Below are positions 23,195-42,895 of a DNA stretch of 64,000 bases, one piece after another. The position numbers and the translations under genes were made by a program. Positions within the stretch are counted from its first letter, which is position 1. Each line of letters begins with the position of its first letter. Source of the DNA: Pseudokineococcus lusitanus (GTDB lineage: Bacteria; Actinomycetota; Actinomycetes; Actinomycetales; Quadrisphaeraceae); contig NZ_RJKN01000001.1 of assembly GCF_003751265.1 (NCBI RefSeq), positions 1 to 64,000 of the forward strand, in the 5' to 3' direction. Below the pieces are notes generated by a model. It did no database searches, was not told the origin of the DNA, and saw only the letters and a program-made list of their open reading frames with translations.

Positions 23195-23863
23195 GTGACC
23201 ACGCAGCCCCCCAGCCCCGACGGCGACGACGCCGCCACCGCCGCCCAGACCACTGCGGCCCCCGTCGACGACGCCCCCTCGGGCCCCCGCCGCCGTGTCG
23301 TGGTCGCCGAGGACGAGGCGATCATCCGCCTCGACGTCGTCGAGACGCTGACGGAGGCCGGCTTCGACGTCGTCGGCGAGGCCGGCGACGGCGAGAGCGC
23401 CGTCCGGCTCGTCGAGGAGCAGACCCCCGACCTCGTCGTCATGGACGTGAAGATGCCCGTCCTCGACGGCATCTCCGCGGCGGAGCGGATCGGCCGTGCG
23501 GGTCGCACCGCGGTCGTCCTCCTCACCGCCTTCTCGCAGAAGGAGCTCGTGGACCGGGCCCGCGACGCCGGGGCCATGGCCTACGTCGTCAAGCCCTTCA
23601 CGGCCGCCGACCTGCTGCCCGCCGTGGAGATCGCCCTCAGCCGCCACACCGAGCTGCGGGCGCTCGAGGACGAGGTGGCCGACCTCTCCGAGCGCTTCGA
23701 GACGCGCAAGCGGGTCGAGCGGGCCAAGGGCCTGCTCATGCAGCAGATGGGCCTGTCCGAGCCCGAGGCCTTCCGCTGGATCCAGAAGACGTCCATGGAC
23801 CGTCGACTGACGATGCGCGAGGTCGCCGACGTCGTCCTCGAGCAGGTCGGCGGCAAGGGCTGA
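23195..23863 (+). CDS. pdtaR: ANTAR-domain response regulator (PdtaR-like)
   Basis: 222 residues. An acidic N-terminal tail of about 33 residues precedes a receiver domain with acidic pocket 'VAEDEAIIR', phospho-acceptor Asp84 in 'VVMDVKMP', Thr in 'LLTAF' and Lys133 in 'VVKPF'. The C-terminal ANTAR domain (about 150-222: 'RKRVERAKGLLMQQMGLSEPEAFRWIQ') binds RNA hairpins and acts as an antiterminator in this family. Its position after pyk is the usual actinobacterial context. The sensor kinase PdtaS is not in the window. It probably has a leaderless mRNA. Confidence 0.92.
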   Translation: MTTQPPSPDGDDAATAAQTTAAPVDDAPSGPRRRVVVAEDEAIIRLDVVETLTEAGFDVVGEAGDGESAVRLVEEQTPDLVVMDVKMPVLDGISAAERIGRAGRTAVVLLTAFSQKELVDRARDAGAMAYVVKPFTAADLLPAVEIALSRHTELRALEDEVADLSERFETRKRVERAKGLLMQQMGLSEPEAFRWIQKTSMDRRLTMREVADVVLEQVGGKG

Positions 23864-40583: not shown

Positions 40584-40589
40584 TACTCT
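40584..40589 (+). promoter_or_regulatory. -10 of the terC leader
   Basis: TACTCT, predicting transcription from about 40595, exactly where the riboswitch P1 stem begins. No clear -35. Confidence 0.6.
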
Positions 40590-40594
40590 CCGCG

Positions 40595-40752
40595 CGGAGG
40601 GGAGTATCCCTGCGCGTCGGTCTCGTCAACACGGGGCAGCCGTCGGTCACGCCGACGCTGTGCCTCCGGGGCCGGCGGTCCGTGCCCACCCGGCCTGCCG
40701 GTCGGGTGGTGGGCGGGAGAGACCTCCGGTCGTGAACACCACCCACCGGAGG
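40595..40752 (+). ncRNA. Probable yybP-ykoY type Mn2+ riboswitch controlling terC
   Basis: The leader carries the conserved 5' element GGAGG-GGAGTA (40596-40606) and 3' element GAGAGACCTCCG (40717-40728) of the yybP-ykoY class. CGGAGG (40595-40600) pairs with CCTCCG (40723-40728) as stem P1. The same 3' bases, CCTCCGGT (40723-40730), are perfectly complementary over 8 bases to ACCGGAGG (40745-40752), which holds the ribosome site of the terC gene. So P1 and ribosome-site sequestration exclude each other: metal binding should free the site. Helices P2 and P3 were not modelled in detail. Confidence 0.75.
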
Positions 40753-40760
40753 ACAACCCC

Positions 40761-41906
40761 ATGGACGTGCCCATCTGGGTCTGGGCGATCACCGTGGCCG
40801 GCATCGTCGGCATGATCGCGTACGACTTCGTGGTCCACGTGCGGACCCCGCACAGCCCGAGCATCCGCGAGGCGGCCATCTGGTCGGCCGCCTACATCGG
40901 CATCGCCGTGCTCTTCGGCGTCGGCGTGCTCGTCTTCGCCGGCCCGACGTTCGGCGGCGAGTACTTCGCCGGCTACATCACCGAGAAGAGCCTGTCGGTC
41001 GACAACCTCTTCGTCTTCGTGCTCATCATGAGCAGCTTCGCCGTGCCGCGCGAGTACCAGCAGAAGGTGCTGCTCATCGGCATCGCGCTGGCCCTCGTCT
41101 TCCGCACGATCTTCATCGCGCTGGGCTCGGCCGTCATCGAGAACTTCGCCTGGGTGTTCTACATCTTCGGCGCGTTCCTCATCTACACCGCGTGGGCGCA
41201 GGCGCGGGCGGGCCGGACGGACTCCCACGAGGACGAGGAGTTCAAGGAGAACGGCGTCCTGCGGCTGGCCAAGAAGGTCCTGCCCACGACGGACGAGTAC
41301 CACGGCGACAAGTTCACCGTGAAGATCGACGGCAAGCGCCTCGTCACGCCGATGCTCGTCGTGATGATCGCCATCGGCAGCGCGGACCTGCTCTTCGCGG
41401 TCGACTCGATCCCGGCCATCTTCGGCCTCACGCAGGAGCCGTACCTCGTCTTCACGGCCAACGCGTTCTCGCTGCTCGGCCTCCGCCAGCTCTACTTCCT
41501 CATCGACGGCCTGCTCGACCGCCTCGTCTACCTGCACTACGGCCTCGCGGCGATCCTCGGCTTCATCGGCATCAAGCTCCTCATCCACGCCCTCCACGAG
41601 AACGAGCTGCCGTTCATCAACGGCGGCGAGCACGTGACGGCGATCCCGGAGATCCCGACCTGGCTGTCGCTGCTCTTCATCCTCCTCGCGCTGGGCGTGA
41701 CGACCGTGCTGTCCCTGCGCGAGAACAAGCGCATGGCGTCGGCCGCGGCCGTCGACCAGCGCGGCGCGGGCCGTCCCGACGAGGCGCCCACGCCCAGCCG
41801 CACGCCGGTCGGCGAGGGGCAGCGCGACGGCGGCGCCCTCGAGGACGTCCCGGACGACACGCCGCGCGGCCCGCGTGACGCCGGCCGCGGGGGCGCGTCG
41901 CGGTGA
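40761..41906 (+). CDS. TerC family membrane protein (probable Mn2+ exporter) 1
   Basis: 381 residues with about nine membrane helices. Conserved membrane acids are in 'KSLSVDNLFVFVLIM' (about residues 75-89) and 'LLFAVDSIPAIFG' (about 211-223), the TerC/Alx hallmarks. A Pro/Asp-rich cytoplasmic tail follows residue 325. Family members export manganese and respond to it; the Mn-type riboswitch in the leader fits that role. ATG start with GGAGG at 40748-40752. The end overlaps a second terC gene by GTGA. Confidence 0.92.
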   Translation: MDVPIWVWAITVAGIVGMIAYDFVVHVRTPHSPSIREAAIWSAAYIGIAVLFGVGVLVFAGPTFGGEYFAGYITEKSLSVDNLFVFVLIMSSFAVPREYQQKVLLIGIALALVFRTIFIALGSAVIENFAWVFYIFGAFLIYTAWAQARAGRTDSHEDEEFKENGVLRLAKKVLPTTDEYHGDKFTVKIDGKRLVTPMLVVMIAIGSADLLFAVDSIPAIFGLTQEPYLVFTANAFSLLGLRQLYFLIDGLLDRLVYLHYGLAAILGFIGIKLLIHALHENELPFINGGEHVTAIPEIPTWLSLLFILLALGVTTVLSLRENKRMASAAAVDQRGAGRPDEAPTPSRTPVGEGQRDGGALEDVPDDTPRGPRDAGRGGASR

Positions 41907-42895
41907 CCGTCCCGGGGTGGCTGTGGGCCGCCACGATCGTCGCCGCGGTGGTGTTCCTCACCGCGGACGTGGTCCTCAGCCGGCGCAACCCGCACGTGCC
42001 GAGCACGGCGGAGAGCGCCCGTCACCTGGCCGGCTTCGTCGCCGCCGCCGTGGTGTTCGGCCTCGGGCTCTGGTACTTCGCGGGGGGTCAGGCGGCGGGC
42101 GAGTTCTACGCGGGCTGGCTCACCGAGTACTCGCTCTCGGTGGACAACCTCTTCGTCTTCCTCCTGATCTTCCGGCGGTTCGCCGTCCCGCAGCACCTCC
42201 AGCAGAACGCGCTGCTCATCGGCATCGTGCTGGCCCTGGTGCTGCGGGCGGCGGTCATCGCCGTCGGTGCGAGCCTCATCGAGGCCTTCAGCTGGGTGTT
42301 CTTCCTCTTCGGCGCCTTCCTCCTCCTCACCGCGGTCAACCTCGTCCGCGGCGCGGGCGGTGACGACGAGGAGGAGTTCCACGAGAACCGGCTCGTCGGG
42401 CTCGTGCGGCGGGTCGTCCCCGTGACGCCCGACTACCGCGGGCCGACGCTCGTCGTGCGCGAGGCCGGTCGCCGCGCCGTCACGCCGATGCTGCTCGTGC
42501 TCGTGGCGCTCGGGACGACGGACCTGCTCTTCGCGCTCGACTCGATCCCGGCGATCTTCGGCCTCACGAGCGAGCCGTACATCGTCCTCACGGCCAATCT
42601 CTTCGCCCTCATGGGGCTCCGGCAGCTGTTCTTCCTCGTGGGGGACCTGCTGAAGAAGCTCATCTACCTCGACATCGGCCTGGCGGTCCTGCTGGCCTTC
42701 GTCGGCGTGAAGCTCGTCCTCGAGGCGCTGCACGAGAACTCGCTGCCGTTCCTCAACGGCGGCGAGCCCGTCGAGTGGGCGCCGGTCGTGCCCATCTGGC
42801 TGTCGCTGTCCGCCATCGTCGTCATCCTCGGCGTGACGGCGGCGGTGTCGCTGGCCGTCAGCCGGCGGCGCGAGCGCGCCGGCCGGACGACCTGA
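41903..42895 (+). CDS. TerC family membrane protein 2
   Basis: 330 residues, a paralogue of the preceding gene with the same motifs: 'YSLSVDNLFVFLLIF' and 'LLFALDSIPAIFG'. Loop 'DDEEEFHENRLVGLVRRVVPVTPDYRG' replaces the longer loop of the first copy. GTG start overlaps the upstream stop, so the pair is co-translated and both fall under the riboswitch. The two may form a heteromer; this is inference. Confidence 0.92.
   Translation: MTVPGWLWAATIVAAVVFLTADVVLSRRNPHVPSTAESARHLAGFVAAAVVFGLGLWYFAGGQAAGEFYAGWLTEYSLSVDNLFVFLLIFRRFAVPQHLQQNALLIGIVLALVLRAAVIAVGASLIEAFSWVFFLFGAFLLLTAVNLVRGAGGDDEEEFHENRLVGLVRRVVPVTPDYRGPTLVVREAGRRAVTPMLLVLVALGTTDLLFALDSIPAIFGLTSEPYIVLTANLFALMGLRQLFFLVGDLLKKLIYLDIGLAVLLAFVGVKLVLEALHENSLPFLNGGEPVEWAPVVPIWLSLSAIVVILGVTAAVSLAVSRRRERAGRTT

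Follow-up and report, generated by a model that had tools for sequence, protein, structure and literature searches.

Riboswitches of the yybP-ykoY class have been described in several bacteria, and the accounts given here follow the accessible parts of the papers cited. In the crystal structures of members, the helices meet in a four-way junction (PMC6754395). In the switches of Lactococcus lactis and Xanthomonas oryzae, loops L1 and L3 dock, and the 3' strand of helix P1.1 is common to a competing hairpin, which in both is a transcription terminator (PMC11087558, PMC6754395); the sharing of this strand with the expression platform is known already from these two systems. The L1 loop of the X. 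oryzae switch carries GAGACC, and GAGACCAGGGAU makes up the 3' half of L1 and P1.1 (PMC6754395). In Escherichia coli, the alx and mntP leaders are family members regulated by manganese (Mn), and mntP is turned on at translation initiation (PMC9603457). Two further members are compared here by description only: that of Streptococcus mgtA, which has a three-way junction and lies before a Mn2+/Ca2+ ATPase gene (PMC9495176), and the leader of the terC gene cg2157 of Corynebacterium glutamicum, an actinobacterial representative of Rfam family RF00080 that was seen as a 5' untranslated region and was found, with 49.13 bits, by the Rfam model then in use (PMC3890552). Here we analyse a stretch of 64,000 nucleotides (nt) from Pseudokineococcus lusitanus (contig NZ_RJKN01000001.1, positions 1 to 64,000; hereafter the window), in which two terC genes are preceded by a leader of this kind. 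This leader is very probably a Mn2+-sensing riboswitch of the yybP-ykoY class, in a short form without helix P2, which would turn on translation of the terC genes. The literature searched, which covers few subscription papers, does not describe the element for the relatives of this organism; the accessible text of the Kineococcus radiotolerans genome paper mentions riboswitches only in connection with cyclic di-GMP (PMC2587704).

The aptamer spans positions 40594-40729 of the window and is followed by a hairpin that masks the ribosome site and then by terC (Table 1). Both halves of the internal loop L1 typical of the class, GGGGAGUA on the 5' side and GAGACC on the 3' side, are present, the latter as in X. 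oryzae. Among the E. coli members, alx and mntP were compared, and the leader resembles alx. Like the window, alx has GGGGAGTA, CGTCATTACG with CCGG, and GAGACC, and as read here it has no P2; the gene that follows is annotated as the Mn2+ exporter Alx, named a TerC-family transporter in the title of a reference of PMC13274385. The two differ in the distance from the end of the aptamer to the start codon (about 80 nt in alx, about 30 here) and in the guanine-plus-cytosine content of the match (47% versus 76%). Furthermore, the window, unlike alx, has two terC genes and a short hairpin in which a strand of P1.1 acts against the Shine-Dalgarno sequence (SD; anti-SD hairpin). The resemblance was scored with R1, a covariance model built from 50 actinobacterial terC leaders only. 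R1 gives 66.9 bits on the window at 40594-40729 and 42.2 bits on the E. coli alx leader (expectation value, E, of 4e-7 in 150 kilobases). A second R1 match within the window, at 23309-23407 (16 bits, E 0.3), was judged to be due to chance.

Conservation among relatives supports the same assignment. The word GGGGAGT lies at most 260 nt upstream of a TerC match in all 80 loci of relatives, these being the best-matching 80 of the 258 relatives found and belonging to Pseudokineococcus, Quadrisphaera, Geodermatophilus, Blastococcus, Modestobacter, Trujillonella, Cellulosimicrobium, Oerskovia, Isoptericola, Cellulomonas and a few other genera. GAGACC is found in 76 of these loci, and the remaining four (L046, L055, L066 and L069) have GAAGACC. 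Removal of duplicates left 95 distinct leaders, which include the window's own and also L104, whose GGGGAGT is not that of the riboswitch. Alignment A1 comprises 62 of the 95, hand-picked against redundancy, and alignment A2, like R1, comprises 50 of those 62. In A1, the cells of P1.1, P1.2, P3.1 and P4 are paired in 93.6% of cases and double changes occur in 16 of 23 pairs; P1.1 taken separately is paired in 93.8% of cells, and one of its pairs is GC in 49 leaders, AU in 12 and CG in one. When the 3' partners were slid by 1-3 columns as a control, pairing fell to 38-58%. RNAalifold, given A1 with no guidance, returned the same four helices, with double changes in 14 of 21 pairs. Helices P1.1, P1.2, P3.1 and P4 thus covary across relatives.

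The putative metal-site loop is conserved as well: a relaxed L3 motif (CG[TA]CA, two letters, [AC]C) occurs in 93 of the 95 distinct leaders, and in A1 every leader has the A of GUCA and nearly every one the A of NYA. In the class, the invariant discriminator adenosine that contacts Mn2+ is A41 in L. lactis and A48 in X. oryzae. Helix P2 is absent from the 62 aligned leaders, where the gap between P1.2 and P3.1 is merely 4-7 nt (5 in the window). We do not take P2 as class-defining, because alx as read here has none and Streptococcus mgtA has a three-way junction. The window accordingly shows a three-way form and an SD-masking hairpin, in contrast to the four-way junction and transcription terminator of L. 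lactis and X. oryzae. An initial reading of the sequence, the first-pass annotation, had placed the leader in the yybP-ykoY class, and the GGGGAGT count, the covariation and the R1 match to alx bear this out; the L3 motif (CGTCAACACG), P1.2, P3, P4 and a second genomic copy were absent from it.

The switch would turn on the strand CCTCCGGT, which can complete P1.1 or pair with the SD-bearing strand ACCGGAGG. That one strand is common to both helices, so that the two folds exclude each other, was the central claim of the first-pass annotation, and its positions for CGGAGG, both of these strands and the ATG were right. The claim holds: the strands form a 6-pair P1 and an 8-pair anti-SD helix, all of standard pairs, and permutation tests largely agree. 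In these tests the longest helix of each leader was compared with that obtained from permuted partners in 2000 permutations; relatedness among leaders is ignored, and the resulting counts are not to be read as probabilities. L104, L097, L100 and the alx match were excluded beforehand. Covariance-model matches were dropped if they lacked GACC or GACT (L206, L210, L214), an exact L1 word (L166, L172, L196) or a suitable start codon behind an SD-like word (11 more). Duplicate removal reduced the 167 rows to 160 distinct leaders, namely 88 terC leaders and a wide set of 72 covariance-model matches; in the latter, a script took the start codon from the longest frame that has an SD-like word, and some anti-SD lengths may refer to a wrong start. 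Over the 160 leaders, the helix between shared strand and SD region averages 7.51 base pairs (bp) against 6.52 with permuted partners, and that between shared strand and P1.1 averages 6.07 against 5.32, with none of 2000 permutations as high in either case. The wide set gives 7.26 against 5.82 for the anti-SD helix and 6.06 against 5.23 for P1.1 (0/2000 each), and within the 88 terC leaders the P1.1 helix is again above its permuted value (0/2000). The alternation, whose loss in relatives would have refuted the first-pass annotation by its own account, is kept in most of them, with an anti-SD helix of at least 6 bp in 132 of the 160 leaders.

Several results weigh against our interpretation and are gathered here. 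The anti-SD helix is shorter than 6 bp in 28 of the 160 leaders, and among the 88 terC leaders its mean is 7.72 bp against 7.53 with permuted partners, a value reached in 56 of 2000 permutations; the wide set thus gives a clear signal for anti-SD pairing and the terC leaders a weak one. Column-wise covariation of the anti-SD helix was not found in the 62 close leaders of A1. The co-variation of all three strands, which the first-pass annotation had suggested looking for, appears column by column for P1.1 and not for the anti-SD helix, because the SD side hardly varies: GGAGG stands at the SD columns in 60 of the 62 aligned leaders, 4-13 nt before the start. Column-wise covariation was dropped as proof of the anti-SD helix, and helix lengths per leader against permuted partners were used instead. 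Joint counts of the strands suggest why the column-wise approach fails: in leaders with an anti-SD helix of at least 6 bp, P1.1 GAAGG with shared CCTTC is accompanied by an SD of GGAGG in 22 leaders, which makes a wobble pair, and of GAAGG in 5. Single cases have all three strands changed, for example L154 (CCGAAGG, CCTTCGGC and GCCGAAGG). GGGGAGT is not near the TerC match in 7 of the 30 best loci kept from the own and related genomes, and of these R1 matches L102 only, which leaves six without a match. Nor does R1 match E. coli mntP. A further point comes from the second copy in the own genome, at C2:421964-422093 (L128:1501-1630), the only other R1 match there with E below 1 (44 bits, E 4.1e-6), which is followed by a GDT1/UPF0016 gene (PF01169, E 7.3e-41): its shared strand pairs best with a GGAGG other than the start-proximal one. 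This copy is more diverged than that of the window; the strand in question is CCTTCGACC, and its possible partner downstream is GGTCGGAGG.

The Rfam model stands on the same side. The first-pass annotation had proposed a run of the yybP-ykoY covariance model as a check, and RF00080 gave no match on the leader up to E 10; a cmscan of the leader up to that value returned just two weak matches to other families, far under their cut-offs. At gathering thresholds, all 4227 Rfam families yielded a single tRNA in the window and nothing in 20 homologous loci, and RF00080 exceeded its cut-off in none of 59 genomes (own and relatives). Weak matches exist: 22.8 bits (E 8.7e-5; 19.8 bits in the genome-wide scan) on the homologous terC leader L098, which speaks for the class assignment, and, as the best in relatives, 22.9 bits on contig C4 of genome G028 (G028:C4), which covers model positions 48-84 only. 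The latter stretch is locus L113, which R1 scores at 61.2 bits and which lies before a GDT1 gene; three further RF00080 matches (L115-L117) have no R1 match. Two sub-threshold matches in the own genome (11.8 and 8.4 bits, the second inside the stretch that R1 scores at 44 bits) were left out of the evidence. As positive controls we took two leaders of E. coli K-12, those of alx (L126:8340-8600) and mntP (L125:6400-6700). Rfam 15 RF00080 gives no match up to E 1 at alx and 44.9 bits, with a cut-off of 45, at mntP. Because the same model misses alx and leaves mntP under the cut-off, its miss on the window leader is uninformative, and we rejected it as arbiter of the class. In the printed RF00080 structure GGGGAGUAGC is unpaired and no P1 encloses the aptamer, which may explain the weakness of the model. 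That the motifs arose by chance in a GC-rich leader and that there is no riboswitch would fit the missing Rfam match; such an explanation is refuted by the conservation in 80 of 80 loci, the covariation, the homology to alx and the gene context, and we give it practically no credence. The analysis thus shows the aptamer motifs, the covarying helices, two pairings that exclude each other, the homology to alx and the gene context.

Folding energies were computed for the window leader. The stretch 40591-40763 folds with greater stability than dinucleotide-shuffled versions of itself (z -2.69), only 3 of 200 of which do as well, and the local anti-SD hairpin has -16.1 kcal/mol. The minimum-energy fold from 40595 (-95.4 kcal/mol) contains the anti-SD hairpin together with P3 and P4, and with P1.1 and P1.2 forced the value is -85.2 kcal/mol. 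Since tertiary contacts and metal are not included, these calculated energies say only that the OFF fold would be favoured without ligand. If the fold is begun at 40591 instead, the SD pairs with CCTCCGG (40663-40669), a stretch of loop L3; the best fold thus changes with the start, and the energies are therefore not to be over-read. Masking of the SD by this part of L3, with which 7 perfect pairs are possible, and not by the P1.1 strand, would be an alternative way to close the ribosome site. The fold from 40595 gives the anti-SD hairpin with the P1.1 strand, and only 13 of 62 leaders carry CCTCCGG within the aptamer, against the 132 of 160 with at least 6 pairs to the P1.1 strand; on these two grounds masking by L3 was judged very unlikely. 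Several of the 13 leaders come from Blastococcus or Modestobacter.

With the SD hidden by the P1.1 strand, the switch would work as follows. Transcription probably begins at the 5' strand of P1.1. In the ligand-free RNA, P3 and P4 would be folded and CCUCCGGU would pair with ACCGGAGG, which would hide the terC ribosome site (OFF). Mn2+ would dock loops L1 and L3 and so stabilise P1.1, and P1.1 would take CCUCCG from the anti-SD hairpin, after which terC and the overlapping second terC would be translated (ON). Mn2+ as the ligand, the direction of the switch, the start site and the coupling to the second gene are predicted from sequence. The comparative data back the ON direction proposed in the first-pass annotation; ON behaviour in this organism is likewise a prediction. 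Control by transcription, through attenuation or Rho, could be exerted by the same aptamer class, as in L. lactis and X. oryzae the same P1.1 strand serves for antitermination (PMC11087558, PMC6754395) and Rho acts together with the E. coli mntP riboswitch (PMC11647493). In the window, however, no U run follows the competing hairpin, the sequence behind it being ACAACCCCATG, and the SD itself, 8 nt before the start, forms the 3' arm of this hairpin; a GGAGG arm is kept in 60 of 62 leaders. We consider transcriptional control unlikely.

The first-pass annotation had further read TACTCT as a -10 hexamer that places the transcription start exactly at P1. The hexamer is present, and transcription may plausibly begin at P1.1 or just before it. 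Among the 95 distinct leaders, TANNNT occurs 44 times at 9-15 nt before GGGGAGTA, compared with 6 occurrences in the remainder of the 70 nt upstream. The window, with a spacing of 9, has one of the shorter distances, since 40 of the 44 fall at 12-15. No TANNNT was found at 9-15 nt in 51 of the 95 leaders, the exact pattern being missing there in Pseudokineococcus L003-L005 and in nearly all Geodermatophilus, Blastococcus and Modestobacter leaders. Because of these 51 leaders, the promoter is not made a general part of the argument.

Both genes downstream belong to the TerC family, as had been proposed, and they share 4 nt (41903-41906). The first TerC protein has 86% identity to its P. marinus counterpart over the best segment, and 12 of the 13 genomes from its family, the own genome counted, have a second TerC match adjoining the first. 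The earlier description of TerC as a metal-exporter family is too narrow, the Bacillus subtilis TerC proteins being implicated in metalating exported enzymes (PMC10550928).

Table 1. Features of the terC leader and genes in the window.
Feature	Positions	Strand	Basis or remark
-10-like hexamer TACTCT	40584-40589	+	Sequence; predicted transcription start about 40595-40597
P1.1 5' strand CGGAGG	40595-40600	+	6 standard pairs with 40723-40728
L1 5' side GGAGTA, part of class-typical GGGGAGTA (40599-40606)	40601-40606	+	A1 columns invariant
P1.2 5' strand TCCC	40607-40610	+	Partner 40715-40718; double changes in 3/4 pairs, 99.6% of cells paired
P3.1 5' strand	40616-40623	+	Partner 40669-40676; double changes in 6/8 pairs
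L3 5' side CGTCAACACG, putative metal-site loop	40624-40633	+	Relaxed motif common to relatives
P3.2 hairpin and L3 3' side (CTCCG)	40634-40668	+	Alignment A1, fold
P3.1 3' strand	40669-40676	+	Covariation count in aligned leaders
P4 hairpin, base 40678-40682 with 40710-40714	40678-40714	+	Double changes in 5/5 pairs
P1.2 3' strand GGGA	40715-40718	+	Covariation count and fold
L1 3' side GAGA, part of class-typical GAGACC (40719-40724)	40719-40722	+	Locus counts and A1
Shared strand CCTCCGGT	40723-40730	+	P1.1 3' strand (40723-40728) or anti-SD (40723-40730); permutation tests
SD-bearing strand ACCGGAGG	40745-40752	+	8 nt before terC start; 8/8 pairs with 40723-40730
terC gene 1	40761-41906	+	Pfam PF03741, E 1.5e-53; ATG at 40761
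terC gene 2	41903-42895	+	Pfam PF03741, E 2.3e-47

Beyond the close relatives, 296 genomes of the phylum Actinomycetota, the own genome included, were searched with R1 and RF00080 under the stricter filters of Infernal. R1 matches 64 of them at E of at most 0.01, with 84 matches in total, and RF00080 matches 13, one of these over the cut-off. The 64 and the 13 genomes share none. It looks as if the phylum held two separate Mn2+ riboswitch sublineages. The genes behind the 84 R1 matches are TerC-like in 46 cases, GDT1-like in 14, cation ATPases in 12 and others in 12, which puts 72 of 84 in a Mn-type context. The second copy in the own genome, with its GDT1/UPF0016 gene, fits this pattern and counts in favour of the riboswitch reading. 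Downstream genes were scored for 93 sources, the 84 phylum matches plus nine others including alx. With three query proteins, tblastn assigned 53 as TerC-like and 14 as GDT1-like. Of the other 26, Pfam identified 12 as Cation_ATPase_N and 2 more as GDT1; 3 are Na/Ca exchanger-like (one over the Pfam cut-off and two below it), and one more is so by eye, with no Pfam match. The rest comprise 2 M50 peptidases, 1 PGPGW protein, 1 AAA_16 protein (following the R1 match of lowest score, 31 bits), 1 gene assigned to no family and 3 that lie too close to a record end to be classed. For 23 of these 26 genes, Pfam saw at most the first 137-150 residues of a frame chosen by script. The R1 matches before the M50 peptidase genes (L169:151-239 and L199:151-243) and before the gene of the PGPGW membrane protein (L204:151-258) score 47-61 bits. 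Neither kind of gene is named as a member of the Mn2+ regulon in the accessible parts of the literature covered.

The gene context also bears on the ligand. UPF0016 proteins and P-type ATPases are Mn efflux families, TerC takes part in Mn detoxification, and mneA and terC behind a yybP-ykoY riboswitch are induced by Mn; RNA coverage showed no drop at the riboswitch in that study, whose accessible text leaves the mechanism open (PMC13274385). The RNA might answer mainly to another signal, such as alkaline pH or a different divalent metal, given that the alx riboswitch is responsive to alkaline pH too (PMC9603457) and that some R1 matches lie before cation ATPases and Na/Ca exchanger-like genes. 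Against this, the class-typical L1 and L3 motifs are kept and the context is mostly TerC and GDT1/UPF0016, that is, proteins of Mn detoxification or efflux (PMC13274385), so that we regard a signal other than Mn2+ as quite improbable.

What is mainly new here is that a lineage common in the phylum is missed by the standard Rfam model. We give even credence to a broader proposal: that in Actinomycetota this alx-like lineage, invisible to Rfam, would be a common Mn2+ riboswitch, switching translation by a swap of strands between P1.1 and SD. Its three strands would coevolve, P1.1 and the shared strand drifting together and the SD rarely changing and tolerating wobble pairs, and it would also govern genes outside the usual Mn regulon, for example those of M50 peptidases. 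Annotation based on RF00080 overlooks the lineage, as the 64 genomes matched by R1 and the 13 matched by RF00080 among the 296 indicate. With a better model, the Mn2+ regulon of Actinomycetota would grow, and transporters so far uncharacterised would be tied to manganese. Translational Mn2+ switching could be studied cleanly on this leader, which is short and in which a single strand changes its partner between the OFF and ON folds.

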